Positions 10,947 through 63,264 of a stretch of 64,000 nt of DNA are shown here, in pieces. This DNA is from Prevotella sp. (lineage in GTDB: Bacteria; Bacteroidota; Bacteroidia; Bacteroidales; Bacteroidaceae), in contig JAFUFJ010000005.1 in NCBI GenBank assembly GCA_017469955.1, forward strand, positions 186,001-250,000. The letters run 5' to 3'. The translations under genes and the position numbers were made by a program. Numbering within the stretch: the stretch's first letter is position 1; every line of letters starts with the position of its first letter. The notes beneath the pieces were generated by a model, which had not been told where the DNA came from, made no database searches, and saw only the letters and a list, made by a program, of their open reading frames with translations.

Positions 10947-11056
10947 GAGAAAGCTATCCTTTCAGGGTGAGAAGTCTATGGGTTATGCCTGAGAAAGCTA
11001 TCCTTTCTCACCCAGAAAGCTAAGACTTCTCGGGCTGAAACCTAAGCTTTCTCGCC
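10947..11056. repeat. 22-bp modular repeat array, A-type, five units
   Basis: Exactly 110 bp in five 22-bp units. Cores: GAGAAAGCTATCCTTTCAG, GAGAAGTCTATGGGTTATG, GAGAAAGCTATCCTTTCTC, CAGAAAGCTAAGACTTCTC, CTGAAACCTAAGCTTTCTC. It fills the gap between the glnN promoter and the 3' end of dapL. Confidence 0.93.
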
Positions 11057-11093
11057 GGCACTCCTCAGCCACCGTCCCGGAAAGGCTTGCCGC

Positions 11094-12335
11094 TCATCCC
11101 GCGACTTGCATCCACCGCTGCAGGCGACGCATGGCTTCACGGCAGTCTTCACGGCTTCCGAAGGCCGTCAGACGGACGTATCCTTCACCGCTTGGACCGA
11201 AACCTACGCCCGGCGTACATACCACTCCTGCGCCATAGAGCATCTCTGCGAAGAAACGCCACGAGGGGGTTCTGCCCGGCGTCTGCACCCACAGGTAGGG
11301 AGCATTCACGCCTCCGTAGACCTTAAACCCCATCTCGGAGAGGCTCTCTCGCATCACGCGCGCGTTACCTATATAATATTGTACGGTCTCCCGGGTCTGC
11401 TTTCGTCCCTCCGGAGTATAGATAGCTGAGGCAGCACGCTGGGCCAGATAGCTGGCTCCGTTGAACTTTGTCGACTGCCTCCGCTCCCAAAGACGGTTCA
11501 AAGAGACGCGCTGGCGACCGTCAATGGTCACGGCCGTGAGCTCCTTGGGTATGACTGTATAGCCGCAACGCACGCCCGTGAAGCCCGCAGTCTTGGAATA
11601 AGAGCGGAACTCTATGGCGCATCGTCGCGCACCACGTATCTCATAGATGCTGTGAGGAATCGTGTCGTCCTGGATAAAGGCTTCATAAGCTGCATCGAAA
11701 AAGATGAGGGCATCGTTGTGAAGGGCATAGTTCACCCACTGGCGCAACTGCGCTTTAGTCAGTACTGTGCCCGTGGGATTGTTGGGATAGCACAGGTAGA
11801 TGACGTCGACTCGCTGCTTGGGCAGCTCTGGAACGAACCCGTTCTCGGCCGTCGTGGGGAAGTAAGTCACGTTTGACCATCGACCCTTGTCGCACACACC
11901 TGCCCTGCCTATCATCACGTTTGAGTCGATATATACCGGATAGATGGGGTCGGTCACCCCCACCGAGTTGTCCCATCTGACCAGCTCCTGTATGTTTCCT
12001 ATGTCGCTTTTCGCACCGTCGCCGACGAAAACCTCGGACAAGTCGAGGTGGATGCCTCGAGGAAGATAGTCGTTCTTCACGATGGCTTCGCGCAGGAAGT
12101 CATAGCCTCGCTCGGGACCATAGCCATGAAACGTGGCCTGACTGCCCATCTCTTCGACCGCCTTGTGCATGGCTTCAATCACAGCAGGACAAAGAGGCTG
12201 CGTCACATCGCCGATGCCTAACGAGATGACTTGCTGCCGAGGATGCGAAACCTGATAGGCTTTCACCTTCTTTGCGATGTCTGCAAAGAGGTAGCTCTCT
12301 GTCAGTTTAAGAAAATGTTCGTTTACTAATGCCAT
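11094..12335 (-). CDS. dapL: LL-diaminopimelate aminotransferase
   Basis: 413 residues from MALVNEHFLKL, the standard start of this family; an ATG nine bases upstream is less likely. DapL converts tetrahydrodipicolinate directly to LL-diaminopimelate using glutamate, bypassing the DapD/C/E route to lysine and peptidoglycan. It is a class I/II PLP enzyme: the Schiff-base Lys248 is in SYSKTAGFTG, with YPNNPTGT and FFDAAYEAF nearby and LGIGDVTQPL near the N-terminus. It follows dapF by 26 bases on the same strand, so the last two steps to meso-DAP are one operon. Confidence 0.96.
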   Translation of the reverse strand: MALVNEHFLKLTESYLFADIAKKVKAYQVSHPRQQVISLGIGDVTQPLCPAVIEAMHKAVEEMGSQATFHGYGPERGYDFLREAIVKNDYLPRGIHLDLSEVFVGDGAKSDIGNIQELVRWDNSVGVTDPIYPVYIDSNVMIGRAGVCDKGRWSNVTYFPTTAENGFVPELPKQRVDVIYLCYPNNPTGTVLTKAQLRQWVNYALHNDALIFFDAAYEAFIQDDTIPHSIYEIRGARRCAIEFRSYSKTAGFTGVRCGYTVIPKELTAVTIDGRQRVSLNRLWERRQSTKFNGASYLAQRAASAIYTPEGRKQTRETVQYYIGNARVMRESLSEMGFKVYGGVNAPYLWVQTPGRTPSWRFFAEMLYGAGVVCTPGVGFGPSGEGYVRLTAFGSREDCREAMRRLQRWMQVAG

Positions 12336-12361
12336 AGCTTTCAATCCTTTTTAAGGGCTCT

Positions 12362-13258
12362 TCAGGGCACTTCCACCTCGCCTTCGAAGACGAATGCGGC
12401 CGGCCCGGACATGTAAACATGGCCGTCAGAGGCACGCCACTCCACCGAAAGGGTGCCCCCGTCGCAGACGATGTCTGCCGTACGACCTGCTACAAGGCCC
12501 AGTTTCGTCGCAGCAACAGCCGTCGCACAGGCGCCCGTTCCGCAGGCTTCAGTGATGCCCGAGCCACGTTCCCAGACTCGCATGCGCACCTTTCCCGGCA
12601 AGACTGCTCCCGCATGCGGGGCAGAAGCCTGGGCGTTCGCCGGACGACCGGCTGCAAGAATGGTTGCGAACTCTATGTTGCAACGGTCGGGAAAGGCTGC
12701 ATTCACCTCCAGCAAGGCTCCCTCTCCGGCCACGTCGAAGGCCTCAACGTCGCGAAGAAACACCACATAGTGGGGATTACCCATCGACACATACTGCGAA
12801 CACAGCCACGCTTCTGCACCTGAAGGAACCGTGGGATGGAGGTCTTCCGGCTGCGGCATGCCCATGTCGACGGTGACTTTCTCTACTTTCCGGTGCCCGT
12901 CATTGCCGGCAAATGCCGACAAATGCAGCTGCAACACTTTGACTCCCGAGCGGGTTTGCAGGCGAATCCGGGTCTTGTCAGTGAGCCTTTTCTCATAGAG
13001 ATACTTGCCTACACACCGGCTTGCGTTGCCACACATCATGGCTTCTGAGCCGTCTGCATTGAAGATGCGCATCGAAAAGTCGGCATCCGAAGCATCCTTC
13101 GCGCGGTCAACGACCACCAGTCCGTCGCTTCCCACGCCCTTATGACGGTCGCTCCAAAGGCGGGAAAGAGCCTCAAAGGGCAGGCTTCCGGGTGAAAACA
13201 GGTAGATGTAGTCGTTGCCTGCACCATGCATCTTGGTGAAATGTATCGTCTGGCTCAT
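12362..13258 (-). CDS. dapF: Diaminopimelate epimerase
   Basis: 298 residues. It interconverts LL- and meso-diaminopimelate for lysine and peptidoglycan, using two cysteines as acid and base: Cys76 in MMCGNASRCVG and Cys239 in EACGTGACAT. The start MSQTIHFTKMHGAGNDYIYL is the family N-terminus; a longer open frame to 13348 covers the promoter box and is rejected. A short Ala/Pro-rich insertion (about residues 203-218, ending near APHAGAVLPG) sits before the second Cys domain and looks like a surface loop. It is first gene of dapF-dapL. Confidence 0.96.
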   Translation of the reverse strand: MSQTIHFTKMHGAGNDYIYLFSPGSLPFEALSRLWSDRHKGVGSDGLVVVDRAKDASDADFSMRIFNADGSEAMMCGNASRCVGKYLYEKRLTDKTRIRLQTRSGVKVLQLHLSAFAGNDGHRKVEKVTVDMGMPQPEDLHPTVPSGAEAWLCSQYVSMGNPHYVVFLRDVEAFDVAGEGALLEVNAAFPDRCNIEFATILAAGRPANAQASAPHAGAVLPGKVRMRVWERGSGITEACGTGACATAVAATKLGLVAGRTADIVCDGGTLSVEWRASDGHVYMSGPAAFVFEGEVEVP

Positions 13259-13273
13259 CGGCTTATTTTCTTG

Positions 13274-13281
13274 CAAAGTTA
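13274..13281 (-). promoter_or_regulatory. Promoter -7 box for dapF-dapL
   Basis: Minus-strand TAACTTTG only about 16 bases before the dapF ATG, giving a very short leader. Confidence 0.6.
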
Positions 13282-13392
13282 TTGAGAAAGCAGGAAACAC
13301 AGAAAAAATACTGCCGGAAATCTGCTTTCTTTTTGCAAAAAATGTCAAATCGTAAGCACAGAGGCGGGCGATTTCTTTGTTTTGGGCATCAG

Positions 13393-13433
13393 AAAAGAGG
13401 CAGATGTTTCGATTTGAAACATTCTGCCTCTTT
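13393..13433. terminator. Hairpin terminator downstream of galM
   Basis: AAAAGAGGCAGATGTTTC pairs with GAAACATTCTGCCTCTTT with A and T runs at the ends. It lies past the 3' end of galM and upstream of the dapF promoter. Confidence 0.8.
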
Positions 13434-13493
13434 CTGGCGTATGGCTCCGTTGCACCACGGAAGGGTGGCTGCAGAGCCGGCGAAGTTCATGCC

Positions 13494-14651
13494 TTATTTG
13501 GTGAAGAACTTATAGATGCACACGTGATGGTAGTCCTGTCCCGGCTCAAGAACTGTGGTTGGGAAGGCTGGCTGGTTAGGACTGTCGGGATAATGCTGGG
13601 TCTCAAGGGCGAGCGAAGCACGGTGATTATAGGCTTTTCCCTGCTTTCCGGTCTTCGTTCCGTCAAAGAAGTTGCCTCCGTAGAACTGTATTCCTGGCTC
13701 TGTTGTGTAGACTTCAATGCCGCGACCGCTCTGTGGTTCGTAGACCACTGCTGCGAGTTGAGCCTCGTCGGTCTGGCCTTTGTCGAGCACCCAGTTATGG
13801 TCATAGCCGCGACAGTTGCGGAACTGTTCGAACTCTTCCTGCGTATAGTCGTCCTTAATGCGTGCTCCGATCTGGATGGGTTCGCGGAAATCCATCGGTG
13901 TTCCCTCAACTTCGGCGAGCTCACCTGTCGGTATAAGTGTGGCATCGACGGGCGTATACTTCGAGGCAAGTATCTGGAGTTCGTGGTCGTTGATGGTGCC
14001 TTCACCGGCTCCATGCAGGTTGAAGAACGAGTGATGGGTAAGGTTCAGGACGGTCTTCTTGTCGGTAACCTTGGCATCATGGGTGACGATGAACTCGTTG
14101 TCGTCATTGAGTTCGTAGGTCATCGTTACTTCAAGCGTGCCAGGATAGCCCATTTCGCCGTCGACAGAGGTATACTTCAACACCAGCTTTTCATCGCTTT
14201 GCTGGTCGGCATCCCATACCACCATGTCGAATCCCTTTGTGCCTCCATGGAGAGAATTGGGGCCGTCGTTGGTGGGAACGCTATACTCTACGCCGTCAAG
14301 AGTGAACTTTCCGTCCTTGATACGGTTGCCATAACGGCCGATAGTGGCGCCGAGAAAACGCTCGCCGTCATAGTTGACATACTCGTCAAGGGTTTCATGT
14401 CCGAGTACGATGTCGGCAAACTGACCGTCGCGATCGGGAGTGAAGATCTCGACAACGCGACCTCCGAAGTTGGTCACAGTCATCTCCAGTCCGTTAGCAT
14501 TCTTCAGGGTGTAGAGGTCAACGGGCTTGCCGTCGATCTCGCTTTGGAAGTCTTCACGGTCGACTTGCGAAAGACTCTTCACCTGATTGTCCTTTGTTGC
14601 ACAGCTGGCAAGCATGCCAACAGCCATAAGCATCAAAAAGATTTTCTTCAT
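13494..14651 (-). CDS. galM: Aldose 1-epimerase, lipoprotein form
   Basis: 385 residues. It interconverts alpha and beta anomers of sugars such as galactose. The first 17 residues are a lipoprotein signal with lipobox MLASC, so the enzyme is anchored in the envelope, a common arrangement in Bacteroidales. Family motifs in order: TVTNFGGRVVEIFTPD, GRYGNRIKDGKF, GPNSLHGGTKGFD, NLTHHSFFNLHG (catalytic His) and NCRGYDHNWVLD. It stands alone with its own promoter and terminator. Its job may be to prepare imported sugars in the periplasm. Confidence 0.94.
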   Translation of the reverse strand: MKKIFLMLMAVGMLASCATKDNQVKSLSQVDREDFQSEIDGKPVDLYTLKNANGLEMTVTNFGGRVVEIFTPDRDGQFADIVLGHETLDEYVNYDGERFLGATIGRYGNRIKDGKFTLDGVEYSVPTNDGPNSLHGGTKGFDMVVWDADQQSDEKLVLKYTSVDGEMGYPGTLEVTMTYELNDDNEFIVTHDAKVTDKKTVLNLTHHSFFNLHGAGEGTINDHELQILASKYTPVDATLIPTGELAEVEGTPMDFREPIQIGARIKDDYTQEEFEQFRNCRGYDHNWVLDKGQTDEAQLAAVVYEPQSGRGIEVYTTEPGIQFYGGNFFDGTKTGKQGKAYNHRASLALETQHYPDSPNQPAFPTTVLEPGQDYHHVCIYKFFTK

Positions 14652-14701
14652 TGTCGTAAATAGATTTATTAATTAGTACTGAATGTTTTCATTCCAACTA
14701 A

Positions 14702-14709
14702 CAAAAGTA
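14702..14709 (-). promoter_or_regulatory. Promoter -7 box for galM
   Basis: Minus-strand TACTTTTG about 50 bases before the ATG. Confidence 0.5.
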
Positions 14710-14802
14710 CGCATTATTCTGCTTACTCCGATGGGTCAGCCCGATGATTTATGTTTTTATAACAAATCGCCCGTCTCGCCGGGATGGCTGGGCATGCTCC
14801 TC

Positions 14803-14912
14803 GAGAAAGCTATCCTTTCAGGGTCATACATCATAGATGTACGAAGCATACATCTATGGAATATCGTCCGTATATCTATGATGTATGGACCTGAACCGTG
14901 AGCCTTCCCTGC
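14803..14912. repeat. 22-bp modular repeat array, mixed A and C dialects, five units
   Basis: Unit 1 is A-type (GAGAAAGCTATCCTTTCAG, identical to unit 1 of the 10947 array). Units 2-4 are C-type (CATACATCATAGATGTACG, CATACATCTATGGAATATC, CGTATATCTATGATGTATG). Unit 5 begins CTGAAC, an A-like end. All are in 22-bp register. It lies between galM and the 3' end of the GH28 gene. Confidence 0.85.
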
Positions 14913-14921
14913 CGCAAACGG

Positions 14922-16925
14922 CTATCTTGCGACGTATTTCCGGTGGTCTCTTATGTATATCAGGCCCTTTGGCATCGCGTCAGAGACCGCGTTTACGGCC
15001 GTCTTTCCATCGACAAGAAAAGCCTCTCCGCATCCTTTCTGCGCGTCGTCCGTGCCGATGGCAGGCAGCGACGTGCGCACTTCAGCGTCATTGCTGTAGG
15101 CCGAGAACTCGTGAAGGTTGGCATTTCCGTCCTTGCAATAGATGTAGAGCCGGAGCTTTTTGGCTGCAATCGTGAAGTCGCCATACTGATATCCTGCCGA
15201 CGTACAGTCCTGCAACGGCATGGCTTCCTGCCACTCGTTGGCCGTCAAGTCAGCCGAATTCCAGTCATCATCACTACCGTTCCAGTAGTCAATGCGCCAC
15301 TTGTCGACGTGCGCCCCTCCCCCATCTTGCCAAATCATGCCGCCGACAAGGTTGACAGGCGTCTGATAATGCTTCGCAAGGTCGAAGTATATATAGCCTT
15401 CATGAGTGCTGAAGCCGTTGCCATCGGCCGTCGACCCGTCCCAGAGATAGCTCAGAATACTTTGATTAAGGCCGTCGTCGGCCAGGTAAGTCATGGCGTT
15501 TGCCACGTTCTCCATCTTGTGTTCTTCCACGGTTACATTCTCCTGATTGACCGTTGCATCGGTCGATACGATGAACTTTCGGGCGTCGGCAGGACCTACG
15601 ACGAACCTGCAGTCCTTCAGATTGATGCCGTCTGCGTGCCTGATATAGAAGCCCCATACCGGTGTTTCGCCCCACATCGTGCTCTCTGGATACCGTCCAT
15701 CATACTCACTTGGAGCCTTTGGAACGGTCTGAAGGCCACCCGTGAACGAGACGTCCAGGCCTTCAAGCGTGACATTCTTCACCCGCATGTCGCGACCGTC
15801 CCTGCGGGTTCCCGAGATGATGGCTCCGTAGTTCATGCGGTTATGCACAGCCGTCACGTTCTTGATCAGCACGTTGTCGATCGTCCCATACCTCCTTTCT
15901 GCATGCCACATGGTGTTTCCGCGGTTGCCAAGTATGATGAATATGGGTATTCCTACACCATCCATCTCGATGTCTCTGAACTCGATTTCGGAGATGTCTG
16001 CTCCGTCAACAGACTCTATTGCGATGCCTGCAAGGTTGACATCTCTCATGGTTATGTCGTGGAACAGCATGCGTTTAAACCCTCCATAGCTCATCGTTCC
16101 GAACTTGATTCCATTGGCTCGTCCCGACTTTGTGAGTGAACAATGGCGCACGGTGACGTCCTCTACGCCCCGCGAATGGCCGCTCTTCGGGCATATACAG
16201 TCGTCGTCGGTATAGAAAGTGCAGTCCTCTACCAGCACGCGATGGCAGTCAACAATGTCAATACCGTCACGGTTGGGGATGATGTTGGCATTGATCTCGA
16301 CGCTGCGCATGGTGAAATCATCGGTTTCCATGGGCACAATGTTCCACATAGCGCCGTCCTTCAAGAGGAAGTTGTCAAGCAAAACACGCTCACACTGCAC
16401 CATATAGATGGGTATCGGACGTCCCAATTCGTGCTGTCCACTCCATGCAGATGCGTAGCCATTGCCGTTGATTGTGCCCGGTCCGGTTATGCGAACGTTA
16501 CGGGCTTGGTAAGCATAGATGAACGCACGGGCATAGCTTCCCTCGCTGCCCCAGTTGCAATTATCCGATTCAATGACACATGGAGGGAAGTCTTCCTGCT
16601 TGCCTGTGCACCTGAGTGTGGCCCCTTCATCTATCTTCAGGGTCATGTTCGACTTCAGCTGGATGGTCTTCGTCAGGTAGATGCCTTTGGGCAGTAGCAC
16701 GGTTCCGCCGTCGTTGGCCTCGGCACAGGCATCGATAGCACTCTGGATGGCATTCGTATCATCGGTTATTCCCACACCTCTCGCACCGTATTTCTTCACG
16801 TTATACACTGGTGCATCGTCAGGAAACTGAGGCTCTTCAGGCAGGGTTGGTGTGATTTGCGACCATGCAGTCTGCGACAAAATAGCCAGCAGTGCGACCA
16901 TGATGAATGATGACATTCGCTTCAT
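14922..16925 (-). CDS. Secreted glycoside hydrolase family 28 protein (polygalacturonase-like)
   Basis: 667 residues from the chosen start MKRMSSF; the longer frame upstream runs through repeat DNA. Residues 1-22 are a signal peptide ending AWSQ. The N-terminal YNVKKYGARGVGITDDTNAI is the usual opening of GH28 right-handed beta-helix enzymes. Catalytic elements appear as NRDGIDI (for NTDG), DDDC, GHSRG (for GHG) and ANGIKFG (for RIK). About 160 C-terminal residues form a beta-rich region resembling a discoidin-like carbohydrate-binding domain (WDGSTADGNGFSTHEGYIYF). The end, PKGLIYIRDHRKYVAR, looks like the last strand of a type IX sorting tail. The likely substrate is pectin or rhamnogalacturonan. 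Confidence 0.85.
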   Translation of the reverse strand: MKRMSSFIMVALLAILSQTAWSQITPTLPEEPQFPDDAPVYNVKKYGARGVGITDDTNAIQSAIDACAEANDGGTVLLPKGIYLTKTIQLKSNMTLKIDEGATLRCTGKQEDFPPCVIESDNCNWGSEGSYARAFIYAYQARNVRITGPGTINGNGYASAWSGQHELGRPIPIYMVQCERVLLDNFLLKDGAMWNIVPMETDDFTMRSVEINANIIPNRDGIDIVDCHRVLVEDCTFYTDDDCICPKSGHSRGVEDVTVRHCSLTKSGRANGIKFGTMSYGGFKRMLFHDITMRDVNLAGIAIESVDGADISEIEFRDIEMDGVGIPIFIILGNRGNTMWHAERRYGTIDNVLIKNVTAVHNRMNYGAIISGTRRDGRDMRVKNVTLEGLDVSFTGGLQTVPKAPSEYDGRYPESTMWGETPVWGFYIRHADGINLKDCRFVVGPADARKFIVSTDATVNQENVTVEEHKMENVANAMTYLADDGLNQSILSYLWDGSTADGNGFSTHEGYIYFDLAKHYQTPVNLVGGMIWQDGGGAHVDKWRIDYWNGSDDDWNSADLTANEWQEAMPLQDCTSAGYQYGDFTIAAKKLRLYIYCKDGNANLHEFSAYSNDAEVRTSLPAIGTDDAQKGCGEAFLVDGKTAVNAVSDAMPKGLIYIRDHRKYVAR

Positions 16926-17031
16926 AACAATCGTATTTAAAGGTCTGTATATTAGGAAGACGACCGGGAAGGCTGCCTCCACTAACCGCAAGAGGTGGCT
17001 TTTTCCAGCCAGAAAGACGGCCGGCAAGGGG

Positions 17032-17163
17032 CAGAAGCCTGTGCCTTCTGTGGGTAAGAGATGATGTATTGCAGGGCAAAAAATGATGTTTTGGCAGGGG
17101 AAAGATGATGTTTTGGCAGGGGAAAGATGATGTTTTGCTGCCGTGAAGCGATGTTTTTTCGGC
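17032..17163. repeat. 22-bp modular repeat array, B-type, about six units
   Basis: A first A-like unit with core CAGAAGCCTGTGCCTTCTG (17032) is followed by four B-type units. Their ATGATG centres are at 17061, 17083, 17105 and 17127, exactly 22 apart; an example core is GGGAAAGATGATGTTTTGC. A degenerate unit at 17142 follows. It lies between the divergent GH28 and DUF1080 genes, and the rest of that 356-base gap holds only the promoter at 17195. Confidence 0.85.
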
Positions 17164-17194
17164 AAAGAAGCTTGGCCTTTCGGTGTTTTTGGCG

Positions 17195-17202
17195 TACCTT
17201 TG
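17195..17202 (+). promoter_or_regulatory. Promoter -7 box for the DUF1080 gene
   Basis: TACCTTTG 80 bases before the ATG at 17282, just after the B-type repeat array. Confidence 0.55.
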
Positions 17203-17281
17203 CGAGCAGTAAGGGCGGTGACTGATGCCGTTGCCGCCCTCCAATGACGACAGACCATCAATCCTTATAACCATCAATCGT

Positions 17282-18052
17282 ATGAAGAAATCAGTATTTG
17301 CCGTAATGGCTTTGGTGCTGACAGCCGCTGCTGCTCAGGCACAAGAGAAGAAGTATCCCGAACCGATGCCCATGAAACCCGAGATGTCTGAGTACTGGAC
17401 ACCCCAGCCAAGGATAGTGACGCCGGGCAACATGGCCACACAAAGCGCGCCCTCCGACGCCATTATTCTCTTTGACGGGAAAGATCTCTCGGCATGGCAG
17501 CACTATAATGGCGACCCTGCTCAGTGGCCTATCAAGAACGGAGTGGTGACGGTTGACAAGTCGAAGGGCGACATCCGCACCCGTGAAGAGTTCGGGTCGT
17601 TCCAGTTGCACATCGAGTGGATGATTCCGAAAGGTATCGAAGGCGAGAGTCAAAGCCGAGGAAACAGCGGCGTATTCCTTCAGGGAAAATATGAAGTTCA
17701 GGTGCTTGACAGCTATGAAAACGAGACCTATGTGAACGGCATGGCTGGGTCAATCTACAAGCAAACTCCACCCCTTGTCAACGTGATGCGCAAGCCGGGC
17801 GAGTGGAATGTCTACGACATCATCTACAGTGCACCCGTGTTCAACGAAGACGGAACCTATCGTTTCAGACCCTATGTGACGGTGATTCAGAACGGCGTCG
17901 TGCTGCAAAATCACACAGAAATCTTGGGAACGACGGAGTGGATAGGATTCCCTCGCACCGAAAAACACGGCGACGGACCCATCATTTTGCAGTCGCATGG
18001 CGACCCAAGTGCTCCCATCAGCTTCCGTAATATCTGGATCAGAAGACTGTAG
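17282..18052 (+). CDS. Secreted DUF1080 protein (3-keto-disaccharide hydrolase-like)
   Basis: 256 residues from MKKSVFAVMAL; signal peptide residues 1-20 end AAAQAQ. The body is the DUF1080 domain, a concanavalin-like beta-sandwich. Family signatures are IILFDGKDLSAWQHYNG, the core RGNSGVFLQGKYEVQVLDSY, then AGSIYKQTPPL and PGEWNVYDI near the middle, and an end in SFRNIWIRRL. Members cleave 3-ketoglycosides made by Gfo/Idh/MocA-type oxidases. A secreted Gfo/Idh/MocA fusion sits about 9 kb away in this window, so the two could act in the same pathway, though they are not in one operon. The 57-base longer start is rejected for lack of a signal peptide there. Confidence 0.9.
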   Translation: MKKSVFAVMALVLTAAAAQAQEKKYPEPMPMKPEMSEYWTPQPRIVTPGNMATQSAPSDAIILFDGKDLSAWQHYNGDPAQWPIKNGVVTVDKSKGDIRTREEFGSFQLHIEWMIPKGIEGESQSRGNSGVFLQGKYEVQVLDSYENETYVNGMAGSIYKQTPPLVNVMRKPGEWNVYDIIYSAPVFNEDGTYRFRPYVTVIQNGVVLQNHTEILGTTEWIGFPRTEKHGDGPIILQSHGDPSAPISFRNIWIRRL

Positions 18053-18070
18053 AGGGAAAGGCTTCGCGCC

Positions 18071-18180
18071 GAGAAAGCTAAGGGTTCAGGTCGAGAAGTC
18101 TATGGGTTCTCGGTGAGAAAGGATAGCTTTCTTCAGCATAAACCTAAGACTTCTCATGCTGAAAGCTAAGCTTTCTCAAG
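18071..18180. repeat. 22-bp modular repeat array, A-type, five units
   Basis: 110 bp. Cores: GAGAAAGCTAAGGGTTCAG, GAGAAGTCTATGGGTTCTC, GAGAAAGGATAGCTTTCTT, CATAAACCTAAGACTTCTC, CTGAAAGCTAAGCTTTCTC. It starts 18 bases after the DUF1080 stop, in a convergent gap. Confidence 0.93.
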
Positions 18181-18272
18181 ATGAAGGCTGAAGAATGGAG
18201 GGACGAAGGGTAAGTTTTTTCCACCTGAAAAGAATCCGTTCGGCTCGTAACCATTTGACAATAAGCATAATG

Positions 18273-18308
18273 AAAGCGCCGAAGACCTTCCTGGTCTTCG
18301 GCGCTTTT
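18273..18308. terminator. Bidirectional hairpin terminator
   Basis: AAAGCGCCGAAGACC pairs with GGTCTTCGGCGCTTT around a TTCCT loop. It serves the convergent DUF1080 gene and the zincin gene. Confidence 0.85.
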
Positions 18309-18332
18309 GGTTTGCGAAGGGCAGCCGTCAGC

Positions 18333-20612: not shown

Positions 20613-20660
20613 TTCGATTGTTGTGCTGATAGGTTGTTGTAACAGGTTGGTTTTCGTGTG

Positions 20661-52691: not shown

Positions 52692-52733
52692 AGTAATAAA
52701 ATTTAGATGTTTGGTATTATTTTTAAAGTTTTC

Positions 52734-53507: not shown

Positions 53508-53527
53508 GCTGTTGTTCAGGTTCTTTT

Positions 53528-54373: not shown

Positions 54374-54404
54374 CGGCCGTTCTTCACTTGCTTTTTAATT
54401 GGTG

Positions 54405-54412
54405 CAAATATA
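54405..54412 (-). promoter_or_regulatory. Promoter -7 box for folP-cdaA
   Basis: Minus-strand TATATTTG 31 bases before the folP ATG. Confidence 0.55.
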
Positions 54413-54533
54413 GTGATTTTCCCTTGAAACGGCAACATTTTTCCTCAAAAAAACCTTCTCTCATCCGAAAAAGCAGGCCGACAGTCGGCTGCAGGTCTGG
54501 CGGTTCTGCCCGAAGTGCGGATGCATACCGGCC

Positions 54534-54621
54534 GAGACATGCCGTTGGTATGGTTCATACCTGGCACATGTATGGATGATATTCCTAAGATGTATGGAGC
54601 ATACATGGCAGGTGTACAAAC
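54534..54621. repeat. 22-bp modular repeat array, C-type, four clear units
   Basis: Cores: GAGACATGCCGTTGGTATG, CATACCTGGCACATGTATG, GATATTCCTAAGATGTATG, CATACATGGCAGGTGTACA. The second and third differ from the 6186 array at only two positions altogether in the core. It lies in the divergent folP-murF gap. Confidence 0.85.
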
Positions 54622-54718
54622 CCGAAACGGCTCCCTTCATCGCGGATGCCGGCAGGCTTTTTGCCGGCGCCGGCCACAATTCCGCGGGTGAAGGCTTGCC
54701 GTTCTCGGAAAATCTTCT

Positions 54719-54726
54719 TACTTTTG
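54719..54726 (+). promoter_or_regulatory. Promoter -7 box for murF
   Basis: TACTTTTG about 20 bases before the ATG at 54747. This supports the shorter start. Confidence 0.55.
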
Positions 54727-54746
54727 CACGCGACAAGCCATCTGAT

Positions 54747-56060: not shown

Positions 56061-56138
56061 CGAAGGAAGCCGGCCGGCTGGCTGGCCATACACAGGAAAA
56101 ACACGGACAAAAGCCTCCAGGAAGACTGCCGGCACATA

Positions 56139-56180
56139 AAAAGAAAGCTCCGGAAACATCGCGTTTTCCGGAGCTTTCTT
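56139..56180. terminator. Bidirectional hairpin terminator
   Basis: AAGAAAGCTCCGGAAA pairs with TTTTCCGGAGCTTTCTT around CATCGCG, between convergent murF and the OmpA-type lipoprotein gene. Confidence 0.85.
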
Positions 56181-56211
56181 CGTTGCGAAGGCTGTCCCTT
56201 CATGCCTGTTT

Positions 56212-57096
56212 CTACTTCTCTGCATCCTCGGGAGCCTGCTCGATGAGGTCCATGAACTCGTCGAGTTTCGGCGTGATGATGATCTGAGTACGGCGGTTGC
56301 GCTGCTTGCCGACGGCTGTAGAGTTGTCGGCAATGGGGTTGTACTCTCCGCGTCCACCGGCAGTAAGGCGCTTCGGATCGACGCCATACCTTGTCTGCAA
56401 CTCCTGCACAACGCTCGATGCACGCAGGCAAGAGAGGTCCCAGTTGTTGCGAATGTTCTCGCGAGAGATGGGCACATCGTCGGTATTACCCTCGATGAGC
56501 ACGTCATAGTCCTTGTAGTCCGTGATGATCTTTGCAATCTTCGAGAGCGTTTCCTGGGCACGGTCGTTGATCTCATACGAGCCACTCCTGTACAACATGT
56601 TGTCGGCCAGCGAGATATATACCACACCTTTCAGCACCTGCACGTCGACTTCCTTGAGCTCTTCCTTCGAGAGTGAGCGCGTAAGATTGTTCTGAAGCAC
56701 GAGGTTCAGCGAGTCACTCTTGGTCTTTACGTCGACCAAGTGTCGTATATACTGGTTGGAAGCGTTGATCTGGTCGACCAGCTTCTCTATCGAAACATTG
56801 TTTTGTGAAGCGTTGTTCAGGCTCTTGTCGAGCGAGTTTTGCAGCAAGGCATAGTCCTTCTTCTGCTGGTCAATGTATTCCTTTTGCTGGGTGTTCAGTT
56901 CGCGTTGCTGGGCTAACTGCTCCTCCAGGCTCGCCACACGGGCCTGGGCTGTGGCCAACTGTTCTTTGGTTGACATCACGGTTCCCGTCAGTTCCTTATT
57001 CTCGAAGATGCAGTTTTGCAGCTGCTTCTTGCTGGCACAACTCGACAAAAGCACGAGAGTGCCCACCATGGTCGTTGCTAAAATGTTCCTGTTCAT
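56212..57096 (-). CDS. OmpA-family lipoprotein with coiled-coil region
   Basis: 294 residues. The signal ends in lipobox LLSSC, so the N-terminus is lipid-anchored. Residues about 40-150 are heptad-rich and rich in Gln, Glu, Lys and Asn (EQLATAQARVASLEEQLAQQ), a likely coiled coil. Residues about 155-280 are the OmpA/MotB peptidoglycan-binding domain (VLIEGNTDDVPIS, NNWDLSCLRASSVVQEL, RRTQIIITP). It should bridge the outer membrane and wall. It is monocistronic. Confidence 0.92.
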   Translation of the reverse strand: MNRNILATTMVGTLVLLSSCASKKQLQNCIFENKELTGTVMSTKEQLATAQARVASLEEQLAQQRELNTQQKEYIDQQKKDYALLQNSLDKSLNNASQNNVSIEKLVDQINASNQYIRHLVDVKTKSDSLNLVLQNNLTRSLSKEELKEVDVQVLKGVVYISLADNMLYRSGSYEINDRAQETLSKIAKIITDYKDYDVLIEGNTDDVPISRENIRNNWDLSCLRASSVVQELQTRYGVDPKRLTAGGRGEYNPIADNSTAVGKQRNRRTQIIITPKLDEFMDLIEQAPEDAEK

Positions 57097-57157
57097 ACCT
57101 TATTCGCTTGAAGGGTTATTACTGTCGCACCCCTGAATCGAGGTGCCATTGGAAGTG

Positions 57158-57165
57158 CAAAGTTA
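57158..57165 (-). promoter_or_regulatory. Promoter -7 box for the OmpA-type lipoprotein
   Basis: Minus-strand TAACTTTG about 60 bases before the ATG. Confidence 0.6.
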
Positions 57166-57528
57166 TTGATATGACGCTGAAAAACGCGATTTGTCAGCTG
57201 TGTTTAGCGAAATTTAACCTCAGAAGGGCAAAAAAAACGGCCTTTAACATGTCGCTTCGTCTGTTTTCAGGCGCTCTGTTCGCGCAGGCTTCAAGGCGGA
57301 AAGCCCTGCACCGGGCATGCAGAAAGGGAGCGAAGGGCTACCGGTCGCGCCACGAAACCGGGGCTTCCAACGAGGCCGGAGACAAGGAAACAGGGCACAG
57401 GAAGTGTCAAGTTATTTGCCTGATTTTAACACTTCGCGGGGCGAAACCTGTGACAAATCGGGCGGAAAAACGACCTCTTAATCTGGGGAAACGGACACTT
57501 GACTGCTTGAACGGCCGGCTGTCAAGAG
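57166..57528. other. Intergenic stretch with no recognised feature
   Basis: Part of the longest gap in the window (57097-58075). Plus-strand open frames here lack ribosome-binding context and protein-like composition. I see no RNA or repeat in it. Bases 57639-57870 are likewise empty. Confidence 0.6.
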
Positions 57529-57638
57529 CAGAAAGCTGTCCTTTCTCGCCCGCAGAGCAAAGGGTTCTGAGCGAGAACCGGCCTGTTTCTCGGCAAGAAC
57601 CCATAGACTTCTCACTGAGAAAGGGCAGTTTTCTTGCG
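57529..57638. repeat. 22-bp modular repeat array, A-type, five degenerate units
   Basis: 110 bp. Cores: CAGAAAGCTGTCCTTTCTC, CGCAGAGCAAAGGGTTCTG, GAGAACCGGCCTGTTTCTC, AAGAACCCATAGACTTCTC, GAGAAAGGGCAGTTTTCTT. Arms and 22-bp register are kept while the inner bases have drifted. It lies between the divergent OmpA-lipoprotein and purL genes. Confidence 0.8.
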
Positions 57639-57881
57639 CACAAGCCGGACGCCTCGAGCAAAGAAAGGTCTCTATCGTGCGTCAAAAAGACTGCAAATTA
57701 ATGATATTCACGTGGTTATAATTTTCAAGACTTTCCAGTTCCTATTTCGGGAAAAAGCAGGCTACATGTCGCGTTTAAGAACAATACGGCCGGTGTTTGT
57801 CCGCCTTTTTCATCGTTTTTTAACATTTCCGCTCACAAAGAACGGCAAGACTTAAAAGAAGAAACGTGCTCAGTCATTGCA

Positions 57882-58030
57882 AAAAAAAACGAAAACAAGT
57901 ATTCGTTTTGTTTTGCGTCAGGCCCGCTTATGCGTACCTTTGAAGAAGGTACTTGCGCTCGACAATTGCAAAAAAAACGAAAACAAGTATTCGTTTTGTT
58001 TTGCATTGTGCTCGCTTATTCGTACCTTTG
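57882..58030 (+). promoter_or_regulatory. Tandemly duplicated promoter before purL
   Basis: Two copies 88 bp apart, each with ACGAAAACAAGTATTCG then TTTTGTTTTGC. Both have intact boxes: TTTG (57912) to TACCTTTG (57935-57942), and TTTG (58000) to TACCTTTG (58023-58030), each with a 19-base spacer. A 7-bp inverted repeat, GTACCTT/AAGGTAC, spans 57934-57952. It is homologous to the duplicated segment at 36666. Confidence 0.8.
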
Positions 58031-58075
58031 CACAAGAATTCAGCTACACATCATATCATCTATAAAAAGAACAGC

Positions 58076-61000
58076 ATGATACTTTTCTTCAGAACACCCA
58101 GCAAGAGTGTGATTGCAACGGAGTTTGACCATCAGCCTACAGCCGACGAAACGGCCCGGCTCGAATGGCTTTACGGCGGGGCAGAGTGCCTCAAGGACGA
58201 GGCTCTGGAGGGGCTTTTCGTAGGCCCGCGCCGCGAAATGATTACCCCTTGGTCGACGAATGCCGTTGAGATAACACAAAACATGTGCCTCAACGGCATC
58301 GCTCGTATTGAGGAATTCTTCCCCATCGGCAAGGAGGCTGACTACGACCCCATGCTGCAACGGCGCTACGAGGGGCTCAACCAAGACATCTTCACCGTCA
58401 ACCACGAGCCCGAACCCATCAGATATGTAGACAACCTTGAGCAGTATAACGAGCAGGAAGGACTGGCACTGTCGCCCGAAGAGATGGCCTATCTGCACAC
58501 CATCGAAGAGCAAAACGGACGACCTTTGACCGACTCTGAGGTGTTCGGGTTCGCACAAATCAACTCCGAACACTGCCGGCATAAGATATTCGGAGGAACA
58601 TTCATCATCGACGGGGAGGTGAAAGAGTCCAGCCTTTTCCAGATGATCAAGCGGACAACACAAGAAAACCCGAACAGCATCCTCTCGGCCTACAAAGACA
58701 ATGTGGCCTTCTCACAAGGACCTGTGGTAGAACAGTTCGCACCAAAAGACCAGACCAAGCCCGACTTCTTCGAGGTAGACGACATTGAAAGCGTCATATC
58801 GCTGAAGGCCGAGACCCACAATTTCCCCACGACAGTTGAGCCTTTCAATGGTGCAGCCACGGGAACTGGCGGCGAGATTCGTGACAGAATGGGAGGAGGA
58901 ACGGGCTCATGGCCCATCGCAGGAACGGCCGTTTACATGACCGCCCCACGCTCTTCTCAGCGTCCTTGGCTCTATCAGACACCCGAACAGATACTCATCA
59001 AGGCCTCAAACGGTGCCTCCGACTTCGGAAACAAGTTCGGACAACCGCTCATCTGCGGGTCGGTGCTCACGTTCGAACATCAGGAAAAACCACAAGAAGA
59101 CGCCACCCTCAACGAGCCATCCGGAAAGAATCAGACCGGCGAGCCTACCTACTCCTACGACAAAGTCATCATGCTCGCAGGCGGAGTGGGCTACGGAAAG
59201 AAGCGCGACTGCCTGAAAAAAGAACCGCAGAAAGGCAACAAGATCGTCGTAGTCGGCGGAGACAACTACCGCATCGGACTCGGTGGCGGATCAGTATCGT
59301 CGGTCGACACGGGCAGATACTCCAACGGCATCGAGCTGAACGCCATCCAACGTGCCAATCCCGAGATGCAGAAGCGCGCCTACAACCTTGTAAGAGCACT
59401 CGTGGAAAGCAAGGAAAACCCCGTTGTTTCCATCCATGACCACGGGTCAGCAGGCCATTTGAACTGCTTATCCGAACTGGTTGAGGAGTGCGGAGGAGAG
59501 ATAGATATGGCAAAACTGCCCATCGGCGACAAAACTTTGTCGGCAAAAGAAATCATTGCCAACGAGAGTCAAGAGCGTATGGGCTTGCTCATCGACGAGA
59601 GACACATCGACGACGTGCGCAAGATAGCTGAGCGAGAACGGGCACCTCTCTACGTAGTCGGCGAGACAACTGGCGACGCACATTTCTCATTTAGACAAGC
59701 TAACGGAGTGAGACCTTTCGACCTTGATGTGGCACAAATGTTCGGACACTCACCAAAAACCGTCATGCGCGACGAGACCGTAGAGCACCATTATGAACCC
59801 GTAAGCTATGCCAACAGCCAGGAAACCATCACCCACTACCTCGAAAAAGTGCTGCGTCTCGAGGCTGTTGCCTGCAAAGACTGGCTCACAAACAAGGTAG
59901 ACCGTTCGGTCACAGGCAAGATAGCACGCCAGCAATGCCAAGGAGAAATACAGTTGCCACTGTCGGATTGCGGCGTCGTAGCACTCGACTATCGCGGACA
60001 AAAAGGCATAGCAACGGCCATAGGACATGCCCCTCAGGCCGGTCTGGCTTCCCCAGAAGCAGGTTCAGTCTTGTCAGTCGCCGAGGCTTTGACCAACATT
60101 GTGTGGGTACCTCTTGCCGGAAATCTGTCAGGAGTGTCGCTTTCGGCCAACTGGATGTGGCCCTGTCGGTCGCAGAAAGGAGAGGATGCACGACTGTATA
60201 GCGCCGTAAAAGCCCTGTCAGACTTCTGTTGTCAGCTGCAGATCAACGTGCCTACAGGAAAAGACTCCTTGTCAATGACCCAGCAATATCCCAGCGGAGA
60301 GAAGATCATCTCGCCGGGAACTGTCATCGTTAGCGCAGGAAGCGAGGTGACAGACGTCAGGAAAGTAGTCTCGCCTGTGGTCGTAAATGACAGTCATGCC
60401 TCGATCTATCATATCGACTTCTCTTTCTGTGAACAGCGACTTGGGGGCTCAGCCTTCGCACAAAGTCTCGGGAAAGTAGGCAGTGATGTGCCGACAATAT
60501 GCAATGCAGAGTACTTCTCTGACTGCTTCAATGCCGTGCAATATATGATTGAACAGGGATGGATCATGGCCGGACACGACATCTCTGCCGGCGGACTTGT
60601 CACCACTTTACTCGAAATGACCTTTGCAAACAACCGCGGAGGCATGCACGTCAACCTGCACAACATTTGCTCAGACGGCGACGTTGTCAAAGCACTCTTT
60701 GCTGAAAACCCGGGAGTTGTCATCCAGGTGAGCGACAGACATCAGAAAGAAATGTATGAGTTCTTGGAGGATTGTGGCGTCGGTTTCGCCAAGATCGGCT
60801 ACACAACCAGCGAACGTTTGCTGACCCTCAAGCTGGACAACTGGCAGGAATCTCTTGATATTGACTCGCTTCGTGACGTGTGGTATGAGACCTCTTATGA
60901 GCTTGACACCAAGCAAAGCTTCAACGGAAAGGCCAAGGAACGCTTCGAGAACTACAAGCACCAGCCCATTGAAATCAAGCTTCCGCGAGGCTTCCAAGGC

Positions 61001-61819
61001 ACGTTATCGCAATACGGACTTAGCCCTCGTCATGCAGAAGGCATAGAAAGGCCGAAGGCAGCCATCATCAGAGAGAAGGGAACTAACGGCGAACGTGAGA
61101 TGGCTTACTCGCTGTTCTTGGCGGGTTTCGATGTGAAAGACGTCACGATGACTGACCTTATCTCGGGACGAGAGACGCTTGAAGAGGTGAACATGATTGT
61201 CTTTTGCGGGGGATTTTCCAATAGCGACGTGCTCGGTTCTGCTAAGGGTTGGGCCGGTTCTTTCTTGTATAACCCGAAGGCAAAGGAAGCCCTTGACCGC
61301 TTCTATGCCCGTGAAGACACTCTTTCTTTGGGCATCTGCAACGGTTGCCAGCTGATGGTTGAGCTCGGCCTTGTCGGCCAATCGTCGGACGAAGGCAGCC
61401 CGTTGAAGGCAAGAATGCTGCACAACGATTCCCATAAGTTTGAAAGCGAGTACATCTCTTTGCTGATTCCTCAGAACGAGAGCGTGATGTTCTCAAGTCT
61501 TGGAGGGTGCAAACTTGGCCTGTGGGTAGCCCATGGAGAGGGCAAGTTCTCGCTGCCTGAAGCCGAAGACCGCTACCACATCATCGCCAAATACAACTAT
61601 GCTGACTATCCCGCAAACCCCAATGGCTCGGATTACAACGTAGCCGGCATCTGCTCAAAGGACGGACGTCACCTGGCCATGATGCCCCATCTCGAGCGGG
61701 CTATATTCCCATGGCAGTGTGCATGGTATCCGCAAGACAGGCGCATGGACGAGGTAACTCCCTGGATGGAGGCCTTTGTCAACGCCAGACGATGGGTGGA
61801 AAAGCAGCTGAAGGGTTAG
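58076..61819 (+). CDS. purL: Phosphoribosylformylglycinamidine synthase (single-chain)
   Basis: 1247 residues from MILFFRTPSKSVIATEFDHQ; the frame to 57953 covers the promoters and is rejected. It performs the fourth purine step, FGAR plus glutamine and ATP to FGAM. This is the large form with synthase and glutaminase in one chain: FAQINSEHCRHKIFGG and TGTGGEIRDRMGGGTGSWP in the FGAM domain, and SLGICNGCQLMVELG with nucleophile Cys1088 in the class I glutaminase domain. Two tandem promoters precede it. Two chromate-transporter genes follow after 97 bases and might be read through. Confidence 0.97.
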   Translation: MILFFRTPSKSVIATEFDHQPTADETARLEWLYGGAECLKDEALEGLFVGPRREMITPWSTNAVEITQNMCLNGIARIEEFFPIGKEADYDPMLQRRYEGLNQDIFTVNHEPEPIRYVDNLEQYNEQEGLALSPEEMAYLHTIEEQNGRPLTDSEVFGFAQINSEHCRHKIFGGTFIIDGEVKESSLFQMIKRTTQENPNSILSAYKDNVAFSQGPVVEQFAPKDQTKPDFFEVDDIESVISLKAETHNFPTTVEPFNGAATGTGGEIRDRMGGGTGSWPIAGTAVYMTAPRSSQRPWLYQTPEQILIKASNGASDFGNKFGQPLICGSVLTFEHQEKPQEDATLNEPSGKNQTGEPTYSYDKVIMLAGGVGYGKKRDCLKKEPQKGNKIVVVGGDNYRIGLGGGSVSSVDTGRYSNGIELNAIQRANPEMQKRAYNLVRALVESKENPVVSIHDHGSAGHLNCLSELVEECGGEIDMAKLPIGDKTLSAKEIIANESQERMGLLIDERHIDDVRKIAERERAPLYVVGETTGDAHFSFRQANGVRPFDLDVAQMFGHSPKTVMRDETVEHHYEPVSYANSQETITHYLEKVLRLEAVACKDWLTNKVDRSVTGKIARQQCQGEIQLPLSDCGVVALDYRGQKGIATAIGHAPQAGLASPEAGSVLSVAEALTNIVWVPLAGNLSGVSLSANWMWPCRSQKGEDARLYSAVKALSDFCCQLQINVPTGKDSLSMTQQYPSGEKIISPGTVIVSAGSEVTDVRKVVSPVVVNDSHASIYHIDFSFCEQRLGGSAFAQSLGKVGSDVPTICNAEYFSDCFNAVQYMIEQGWIMAGHDISAGGLVTTLLEMTFANNRGGMHVNLHNICSDGDVVKALFAENPGVVIQVSDRHQKEMYEFLEDCGVGFAKIGYTTSERLLTLKLDNWQESLDIDSLRDVWYETSYELDTKQSFNGKAKERFENYKHQPIEIKLPRGFQGTLSQYGLSPRHAEGIERPKAAIIREKGTNGEREMAYSLFLAGFDVKDVTMTDLISGRETLEEVNMIVFCGGFSNSDVLGSAKGWAGSFLYNPKAKEALDRFYAREDTLSLGICNGCQLMVELGLVGQSSDEGSPLKARMLHNDSHKFESEYISLLIPQNESVMFSSLGGCKLGLWVAHGEGKFSLPEAEDRYHIIAKYNYADYPANPNGSDYNVAGICSKDGRHLAMMPHLERAIFPWQCAWYPQDRRMDEVTPWMEAFVNARRWVEKQLKG

Positions 61820-61915
61820 CATCCCGGCCTGCCGACGGGGCGAAAGCCCGGCTGACAGGCCGTGAGACTGGTCGGGAAATCAACGAATTGACAGGAAGAA
61901 AGGCTAATAAGCAAA

Positions 61916-62458
61916 ATGACAAGACAGTTGTTCGTCACCTTCTTTAGGATCGGAGCTTTCACATTAGGGGGAGGCTACGCCATGATACCCATCATCGAAG
62001 CCGAGGTGGTTGACCGTCACAAATGGATCAGCCGGGAAGAGTTTCTCGACCTGATAGCCATCGCCCAAAGCTGTCCGGGGGTGTTTGCCATCAACATCAG
62101 CGTGTTCATTGGCTACAAGCTTCGCAAGACAAGCGGGGCAGTATGGTCAGCCTTGGGCACGGCTTTGCCCTCGTTTCTCATCATACTTCTCATAGCCATG
62201 TTCTTCCATAGGTTCATGGACGTGCCCTGGATTGCTGCCATGTTTCGCGGTATCCGACCGGCAGTCGTGGCCCTGATTGCCGTGCCTACGTTCAATCTTG
62301 CCCGCAGTGCGAAGATCAATTTCGCCAACTGTTGGATTCCCGTCTGTTCGGCTTTACTCATTTGGCTCTTAGGAGTCAACCCCATTTTCATCATCCTTGC
62401 AGCCGGCATCGGAGGCTATTTGTACGGTACATTATTGGAAAGCGAGGTGAAAGAATGA
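61916..62458 (+). CDS. Chromate transporter, short-chain subunit 1
   Basis: 180 residues with about six hydrophobic segments. The N-terminal FRIGAFTLGGGYAMIPIIEA is the CHR signature (FGGGYAM-P-I-E). Single-domain CHR proteins act as pairs of opposite topology; the partner starts inside its stop codon (ATGA overlap at 62455-62458). CHR transporters can export chromate, but in gut and oral anaerobes the natural substrate is unclear and may be another oxyanion. Also within it, AQSCPGVFAINISVFIGYKL is the second conserved segment. Confidence 0.9.
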   Translation: MTRQLFVTFFRIGAFTLGGGYAMIPIIEAEVVDRHKWISREEFLDLIAIAQSCPGVFAINISVFIGYKLRKTSGAVWSALGTALPSFLIILLIAMFFHRFMDVPWIAAMFRGIRPAVVALIAVPTFNLARSAKINFANCWIPVCSALLIWLLGVNPIFIILAAGIGGYLYGTLLESEVKE

Positions 62459-63030
62459 TATTCCTGCAACTCTTCTGCACGTTCTTCGTCATCGGCCTCT
62501 TTGGCTTTGGAGGCGGATATGGCATGCTGTCGCTGATCCAAACCGAGACCGTCGTGCACCACACATGGCTGTCTTCTGCCGAATTTACCAATATCGTTGC
62601 CATCTCACAAATGACCCCTGGACCCATAGGAATCAACTCAGCCACCTACTGCGGGTATGCCGCTGTCCACAATGCAGGCTATGGTGACGCCCTTGCCGTC
62701 TTAGGATCGACGGTAGCAACCTTTGCCCTTGTGCTGCCTTCAGTGGTGCTAATGATACTTATCAGCCGCATGTTCATGAAGTATATGCACACCTCTGCCG
62801 TCGAGAACATCTTCACAGGCCTGCGTCCGGCCGTAGTAGGATTGCTCGCGGCAGCCACCCTCCTGCTCATGAACCGCGAGAACTTCTCTACGCCGTCGGA
62901 AGACTCGTGGCAGTTCTTCGTCAGCGTCTTCCTGTTCATAGCCACCTTTGTCGGCACAAAATACGTGAAAGTACACCCCATCACCATGATTGCCTTCTCG
63001 GCCTTTGCCGGCCTTCTGTTGCTGTACTGA
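62455..63030 (+). CDS. Chromate transporter, short-chain subunit 2
   Basis: 191 residues with about six hydrophobic segments. It carries the same signature in its first helix, FVIGLFGFGGGYGMLSLIQT, and the second conserved region ISQMTPGPIGINSATYCGY. Overlap of the start with the stop of subunit 1 (ATGA) shows translational coupling, so the two probably form a heterodimer. The frame upstream to 62332 belongs to the shadow of subunit 1. Confidence 0.9.
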   Translation: MIFLQLFCTFFVIGLFGFGGGYGMLSLIQTETVVHHTWLSSAEFTNIVAISQMTPGPIGINSATYCGYAAVHNAGYGDALAVLGSTVATFALVLPSVVLMILISRMFMKYMHTSAVENIFTGLRPAVVGLLAAATLLLMNRENFSTPSEDSWQFFVSVFLFIATFVGTKYVKVHPITMIAFSAFAGLLLLY

Positions 63031-63073
63031 CCGCCAAAGACCCTGCAAGAACGGCAGAAAATCCCGAACAAAA

Positions 63074-63115
63074 AAGCTCCGGAAACCCCTGTATCCAAAG
63101 GCTTCCGAGACATTT
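63074..63115. terminator. Imperfect hairpin, possible terminator
   Basis: CTCCGGAAACC pairs imperfectly with GGCTTCCGAG, with A and T runs outside. It lies after the chromate transporter genes and before the repeat array. Confidence 0.4.
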
Positions 63116-63154
63116 TCCACAGCTCCCTGCACACCATCGGCAAGCATTGTCGCC

Positions 63155-63264
63155 GAGAAAGCTAAGCTTTCAGGGCGAGAAGTCTATGGGTTCTGGGCAA
63201 TAACCCTATCCTTTCTCACCCATAAAGCTATGACTTCTCGGGCTAAAACCTAAGCTTTCTCGAA
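63155..63264. repeat. 22-bp modular repeat array, A-type, five units
   Basis: 110 bp. Cores: GAGAAAGCTAAGCTTTCAG, GAGAAGTCTATGGGTTCTG, AATAACCCTATCCTTTCTC, CATAAAGCTATGACTTCTC, CTAAAACCTAAGCTTTCTC. It lies between convergent genes. Confidence 0.93.

Follow-up and report, generated by a model that had tools for sequence, protein, structure and literature searches.

Five-unit 22-bp arrays and a synonymous-codon AA/TT lattice in a Prevotella chromosome suggest that DNA wrapping is encoded in the sequence

Periodic A-tracts at 10-11 bp are a familiar property of bacterial DNA, with ~11 bp as the usual bacterial period (PMC4132750), and the signal described in the parts of the literature drawn on here is short-range (PMC4132750, PMC1242344, PMC3431218, PMC7537859). 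It is gone beyond 70 bp in H. pylori (PMC1242344), in E. coli it consists of segments of ~100 bp (as stated in PMC4132750), and in cyanobacteria it is carried by amino-acid order together with codon usage (PMC4132750). Chromosomes with persistent periodicity are known, 'persistent' in the part of that report drawn on here referring to a dominant period along the chromosome, with no discussion of phase coherence (PMC3431218); our search of the open-licence literature for periodicity with phase coherence turned up only PMC4132750. Here we analyse a 64,000-nucleotide stretch of DNA from Prevotella sp. (assembly GCA_017469955.1, contig JAFUFJ010000005.1, positions 186,001 to 250,000; hereafter the window), in which AA/TT steps form a lattice with a period of 11.02-11.03 bp through coding and non-coding DNA alike (1..64000), and gaps between genes carry dispersed 110-bp arrays of five 22-bp near-palindromic units. 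In contrast to the periodicity described elsewhere, this lattice stays in phase beyond 1-2 kb and is tied to the dispersed arrays.

Several described repeats resemble the arrays in part. PINSR, a 188-bp intergenic repeat of Prevotella intermedia with 177-184 copies, found also downstream of tnaA (PMC4755523), is intergenic, lineage-specific and of high copy number, as is the element of the window; the portion of the paper drawn on here reports a consensus of 188 bp and says nothing of 22-bp units or a lattice. Clusters of self-matching at a lag of 22 bp were present in 8 of 20 tnaA-like loci fetched from congeners. Genome G100 (2.7 Mb, two contigs) has such a cluster downstream of a tnaA-like gene, and the repeat found there has at least 40 copies of at least 188 bases, 83-100% identical to the query among the best 40 of 288 candidates. 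Its consensus, from 25 fetched copies, shows four clear 22-bp units and a weaker fifth; its sequence is unlike that of the window's element. The G100 repeat is probably PINSR. An earlier reading of the window, made from the sequence only, had held that no described repeat has this layout, a claim that is weakened because the PINSR-like repeat holds four clear units and a weaker fifth. Among the open-licence papers listed by our searches, no title or opening of an abstract pointed to a 22-bp palindromic intergenic repeat of Bacteroidetes or Prevotella with this layout.

Other families are further removed. BrickBuilt, a miniature inverted-repeat transposable element (MITE) of Porphyromonas gingivalis, is likewise an intergenic, species-specific tandem short repeat of Bacteroidales, but the part of its description drawn on here gives 23-nt units, 1 to 22.8 per copy, in 19 copies with leader, tail and GAGACC-type ends (PMC4596501), and the units found here are 22 bp with GAGAAAGC ends; a BrickBuilt reading is not supported. 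Repetitive extragenic palindromes (REPs) and bacterial interspersed mosaic elements (BIMEs) are also described as short palindromes in many copies and species-specific families (PMC3733652). The consensus of our arrays differs from these in having neither a GTAG nor a CGTC tag and in consisting of five in-phase 22-bp units. Clustered regularly interspaced short palindromic repeats (CRISPR) require identical repeats and unique spacers of ~30 bp, a reading not supported by variable 19-bp units with 3-bp spacers. Outside bacteria, the periodic An/Tn clusters of C. elegans show long-range AA/TT phasing at the helical repeat, ~10 bp, mainly in introns, whereas the lattice here is bacterial and runs through coding sequence by way of synonymous sites.

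The eight arrays of the window lie at 10947..11056, 32071..32180 and 63155..63264 on the minus strand and at 18071..18180, 20757..20866, 23937..24046, 36526..36635 and 41660..41769 on the plus strand, with orientation weakly supported for 10947..11056 (margin 3.3) and 41660..41769 (margin 4.0). All eight starts and the five-unit division given by the sequence-only reading were confirmed, as was its identification of 57529..57638 as a degenerate copy. A profile built from the eight scores them at 146-157 bits; the next place in the window, at 57529, reaches 54 bits, and the top score in a base-shuffled window is -66 bits. At a threshold of 37 of 66 matches, a scan of lags 15-39 gave 13 clusters at lag 22 and none or one at every other lag. 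Genes were called with a simple open reading frame (ORF) scorer, and 11 of the 13 clusters lie, to within 8 bp, in gaps of at least 180 bp, the other two touching called ORFs. The statement that nearly every gap above 200 bp has an array holds only loosely, as 8 of 21 gaps of at least 180 bp contain one of the kind described.

The genome of the window is a 22-contig, 2.26-Mb draft (75.6% complete), in which the unit-1/unit-2 pattern, with two mismatches allowed, matches 138 times in forward and 142 times in reverse direction (reversed control, 1 and 0). At least 110 distinct places carry an array. We extracted 104 distinct arrays from the window and fetched loci, all of which fit a 107-bp model without insertions or deletions, and no score fell between 40 and 103.9; the search model requires five units, and arrays of other lengths would escape it. 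Every unit of these 104 arrays has a near-invariant AA at positions 4-5 and a near-invariant TT at 15-16, and the half-sites are built from a small alphabet of triplets. Four triplets are near-fixed: AGC at the left of unit 1 (102 of 104), GTC at the left of unit 2 (86), GTC at the right of unit 4 (90) and AGC at the right of unit 5 (101).

The left arm of unit 1 and the right arm of unit 5 form terminal inverted repeats, a trait of MITEs; inverted repeats flanking the arrays were found around none of the 104. The element is a large imperfect palindrome, as had been proposed, in its arms but not in its centre, which is oriented. An oriented-centre model reached a log-likelihood of -4732 against -5133 ± 34 for independent columns, a gap that is overstated because the independent-column null ignores linkage within triplets. 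A perfect-palindrome reading was rejected: unoriented arrays showed strong avoidance of complementarity at the centre, largely from the mixing of two orientations. After orienting, avoidance persisted between the left and right of unit 3 (0 matches, 9 expected) and between unit 3 right and unit 4 left (7, 20.5 expected), and the unit 1 right and unit 5 left half-sites matched above expectation (30 versus 16.6). As a separate observation, outer inverted repeats such as ACCGTACAG...CTGTACGGT seem to enclose the congener arrays L225 67-198 and L271 1469-1620; nothing of this type was seen around the arrays of the window's own genome.

Gaps of all three classes hold arrays, 52 being tandem, 25 convergent and 19 divergent; of the remaining eight arrays, four overlap the edge of a called ORF and four lie at the edge of a locus. 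The proposed intergenic placement is therefore borne out by 96 of 104 arrays and qualified by the four that overlap an ORF edge. Median distances from array to gene are 110 bp to a 3' end and 165 bp to a 5' start. The -7 promoter motif of Bacteroidetes is TAnnTTTG, and at 92 gene starts facing an array this motif, in gene orientation, lies between array and gene 49 times, beyond the array 7 times and inside it twice, compared with 7 between and 2 beyond for the reversed motif. Arrays thus lie mostly upstream of promoter motifs, where motifs were found. In tandem gaps their orientation relative to the genes shows no preference (25:27). Together with a folding test in which shuffling of half-sites was neutral, promoter placement and orientation favour a DNA element that lies mostly outside the downstream transcript, and support the earlier preference for units read on one DNA face over folded RNA.

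The global AA/TT spectrum of the window peaks at 11.0255 bp; power there is 189, and the background averages 1.1 and nowhere exceeds 7.3. Autocorrelation amplitude is 0.0315 at 30-250 bp, 0.0265 at 250-500 bp and 0.0226 at 500-1000 bp, then 0.0137 at 1-2 kb, 0.0059 at 2-4 kb, 0.0071 at 4-8 kb and 0.0044 at 8-16 kb, where phase is still detectable. By the same measure 50 kb of E. coli K-12 has an amplitude of 0.0017 at 30-250 bp, 0.0010 at 500-1000 bp and 0.0006 at both 1-2 kb and 8-16 kb, staying within 0.0006-0.0010 beyond 500 bp, and the lattice of the window is ~18 times as strong at short range. Local phase is near-constant over stretches, such as kb 1-9, and then shifts. Masking 16 array regions cuts the amplitude by less than one fifth, and the lattice recurs in all seven further stretches of the same genome, on four other contigs (amplitude 0.014-0.029). 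Coherence was measured on one 64-kb window and on 20-kb stretches, and the period is the best of ~100 trial values, chosen by the same procedure for every data set.

Within genes, most of the lattice depends on synonymous codons. Permuting these within genes, with amino acids kept, lowered the coding amplitude of the window from 0.0258 to 0.0028 ± 0.0004 and that of the seven other own stretches ~5-10-fold, with a similar or somewhat smaller drop in stretches of the congeners G016, G006, G012 and G010. Observed and shuffled amplitudes were not clearly different in E. coli, G009 and a stretch from the same order (L172), and one outgroup stretch (L302) had a weak signal over its shuffled value (0.0055 versus 0.0023) at another period, 11.37 bp. 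Because synonymous shuffling removes most of the signal, amphipathic helices are excluded as its main source. We also compared lattice phase in orthologous glutamine synthetase genes, where amino-acid constraint alone yields a shared phase.

Arrays and lattice are locked in phase. In flanking gaps, the register of AA at unit position 4 and TT at 15 has a frequency of 0.276, compared with 0.05-0.15 for other shifts; more than 200 bp inside genes and within ~700 bp of an array, it is still 0.103 against a minimum of 0.030, and at 800-1500 bp the wave continues, displaced by one or two bases. The view of the 110-bp array as a self-contained unit is not supported, as the AA/TT phase continues through gaps into neighbouring genes. 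Among measurement windows with amplitude above 2, to which the comparison was restricted, phase agreement was R=0.87 between array and left flank and R=0.90 between array and right flank (n=87 of 104 each), and R=0.80 from flank to flank across arrays (n=77). Controls at the same separation gave R=0.49 in gene interiors (n=43) and R=0.65 at random positions (n=107). This is moderate evidence that arrays set or hold the phase of the lattice.

The explanation that we favour, tentatively and with somewhat less than even confidence, is that the AA/TT steps are a rotational positioning signal on the chromosome, read by a periodic DNA coat for which the five-unit arrays serve as anchors. The steps themselves recur at intervals of ~11.02 bp and keep phase for kilobases, carried by synonymous codon choice in genes and by 22-bp near-palindromes in gaps; the five-unit arrays would be the strongest, sequence-specific, high-affinity points at which phase is set. 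An abundant dyad-symmetric DNA-binding protein would cover 22 bp (two turns, on one face) per repeat and nucleate on the arrays between transcription units, and the resulting coat or wrap would spread outwards over genes in a fixed rotational setting. Transcription, supercoiling or segregation could be affected.

Relatives of the window's species appear to share the layout of the element and not its sequence. None of 29 congeners had the unit-1/unit-2 pattern. Among 84,980 species genomes scanned, from which records of the own genome may be left out, there were three single matches (Phormidesmis, Ruminococcus and Saprospiraceae). With stricter filters, an array profile (R1) detected weak, diverged relatives in 43 of 397 congeners. 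At the level of the order, it had one weak match (E 0.005) in 1 of 16 genomes. The examples fetched from congeners are again near-palindromic 22-bp units, many of them with TA at the centre and AA/TT to either side, and their cores are typical of the species (for example AAAGCATAGCTTT, GAAACCAATGGTTTC and GAAAACGTTGTTTTC). In 569,589 bp from 14 congeners, stretches not picked for matches although four of the 14 came from genomes with a profile match, we detected 26 lag-22 clusters; when each was compared with random places in its own locus, 16 were more palindromic (p<0.05) and 10 were not. Other families of the order, sampled over 232,415 bp (of which ~7 kb was N), had no lag-22 cluster left once N-only stretches had been dropped, and 19 stretches farther out in the phylum had one, which makes one 22-bp cluster in ~0.6 Mb of other families combined.

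Lag counts in congeners may also be raised by coding repeats. At the same threshold, lag 21 was no rarer than lag 22, as expected of such repeats; lags 21, 24, 28 and 42, multiples of 3 or 7, were raised, and non-multiples other than 22, 44 and 66 mostly were not. All-N stretches inflate every lag (L156, L157, L164, L165 and L169 among congeners; L177, L179, L188 and L189 in the order), and L163, through 100 consecutive N, contributes one more. From these sequence comparisons, the 22-bp layout looks widespread in the genus with unit sequences that are species-specific. Additionally, one congener, G360 (L274 1411-1583), has at least eight near-identical 22-bp units of GTGAAAGATAAGGTTTTGC type, a long homogeneous array as opposed to five varied units.

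Three of four G016 stretches show a strong lattice, as do stretches of G006 and G012, both selected for their array matches; the lattice is moderate or mixed in G010, G092, G138, G004, G003, G014 and G133, and not seen in the stretches of G001, G007, G008, G009, G013, G019, G024, G061 and G282. Across 19 outgroup stretches, amplitude was at most 0.0044 at short range and at most 0.0023 at 250-1000 bp; these surveys skipped stretches that were under 9 kb or N-rich (L311 in the outgroup survey). Some congeners have arrays without a visible lattice, which indicates that arrays alone do not produce the lattice and that the two are separable. The fourth G016 stretch, L167, has low GC (0.37) and neither lattice nor arrays, both of which are present in the other three; it is possibly acquired DNA, in which case loss of the lattice could mark recent acquisition. 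We consider it possible, with less confidence than the coat itself, that this lineage has a bacterial counterpart of sequence-positioned chromatin, in which synonymous selection would hold the register over kilobases of genes while the anchor sequence and its reader turn over between species.

A number of observations weigh against a coat anchored on arrays. No histone-fold protein (PF00808) matched in the 75.6%-complete genome, and HU (PF00216), with six matches there, is no explanation by copy number, as it occurs in 60 of 61 Bacteroidota searched and does not discriminate. A separate long-range 22-bp AA-minus-TT signal is weak or absent in the window, and the signal of coding DNA is mainly 11 bp. 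Unit sequences diverge greatly among species, which is unusual for the sites of one conserved protein, and no lattice is visible in the stretches read from G024 and G013, two genomes that have arrays. The anchor comparison is confounded, since array-side measurement windows include gap DNA, which is stronger in signal, and the gene-interior control windows overlap and derive from few genes. Additionally, one array (L011) seems to extend past unit 5, and the number of five units is partly a product of the five-unit search model. Separately from these points, two adjacent HU-type matches lie at G000:C19:7368-7926, one of them within a 477-codon open frame.

The lattice has its main rival explanation in a periodic mutation bias, and the arrays have theirs in a mobile repeat. 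In the first, which we consider unlikely, a repeat of ~11 bp per turn would be set by supercoiling or ordinary HU, and face-dependent bias in mutation or repair would reinforce itself, leaving the lattice as a by-product and the arrays as sites free of an opposing coding constraint. Such a process would give a signal that is continuous through genes and lies on synonymous sites, as observed, and the period is close to the usual bacterial value of ~11 (PMC4132750). However, bias alone would not yield the particular sequence and order of units that the arrays have in common, seen in their four near-fixed triplets, and congeners carry arrays without a visible lattice.

The second, which appears quite unlikely, takes the arrays for a non-autonomous repeat, mobile or REP-like, that has spread among gaps and is only secondarily in phase with the lattice. 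The number of similar places and the inverted outer arms are consistent with this, as are an excess of closely similar copies (10 of 5356 array pairs above 90% identity, against 0.5 expected from permuted blocks), a spread of pairwise identity wider than permuted (standard deviation 0.051 versus 0.041) and copies of the PINSR-like G100 repeat that are 83-89% identical to the query copy. However, most arrays are distant from one another (mean identity 0.75), the strongest column linkage falls within units, the phase carries on outside the element, and no Y1 (RAYT) transposase (PF01797) was found in the 75.6%-complete genome.

We regard as improbable that the arrays are operator platforms from which a conventional regulator controls adjacent promoters. 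Palindromic units on one face, upstream of promoter motifs, would suit that role, but 25 of the 96 arrays in classed gaps lie in convergent gaps, the neighbours are unrelated metabolic genes (10 window proteins), and the phase extends into genes. Least probable is that the arrays act as folded RNA, in the form of 3' hairpins, terminators or processing sites: near-palindromic units that fold to a long hairpin (mean minimum free energy -48 kcal/mol) and the excess of matches between unit 1 right and unit 5 left speak for it, but observed half-site combinations fold no better than permuted ones (-48.1 versus -47.65 ± 0.52, 12 permutations), no Rfam family matches the arrays at gathering score, tandem arrays lack a preferred orientation, 19 of 96 lie in divergent gaps, and promoter motifs, where found, are mostly between array and gene.

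Other 22-bp families with the same layout occur in the window, built from CATACATCT/AGATGTATG and GCAAAAGAT/ATGTTTTGC units, and in mixed arrays such units take the place of inner units. The mixed array at 14803..14912, read by eye, has an outer GAGAAAGCTATCCTTTCAG unit, three CATACATC-type units and an outer CTGAA unit, and that at 49124..49255 has three CATACATC-type units and, after them, three of GAGAA type. Three GCAAAAGAT-type units flanked by GAA-type outer units make up the array at 2286..2395. Four AGATGATGTTTTG-type units at 17032..17141 belong to a lag-22 cluster (17026-17187) within the 5' portion of a called ORF, and a CATAC-type array at 54534..54643, with three clear and two weak outer units, to a cluster (54529-54622) that straddles a called start; three further CATAC-type units lie at 6185..6250. 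Two promoter-bearing segments of ~90 bp, at 36666-36853 and 57880-58065, are each tandemly duplicated (88-90 bp apart) and resemble one another, with a related segment after the array in L029; these look like a second dispersed family, tied to promoters. An Rfam L13-Bacteroidia ribosomal protein leader at 41439-41514, upstream of rplM, adjoins the array at 41660.

The bearing of the weak 11-bp periodicity of bacterial DNA on nucleoid structure has long been in doubt. A genome whose lattice is many times stronger, coherent over kilobases, largely dependent on synonymous codons and linked to recognizable anchors would make the nucleoid question directly testable by footprinting. If a coat positioned by AA/TT steps is the true explanation, chromosome packaging could govern synonymous codon choice, and PINSR and similar unexplained intergenic repeats would gain a frame in which to be understood. 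Our data suggest that the DNA sequence of this bacterium encodes how its chromosome is wrapped.

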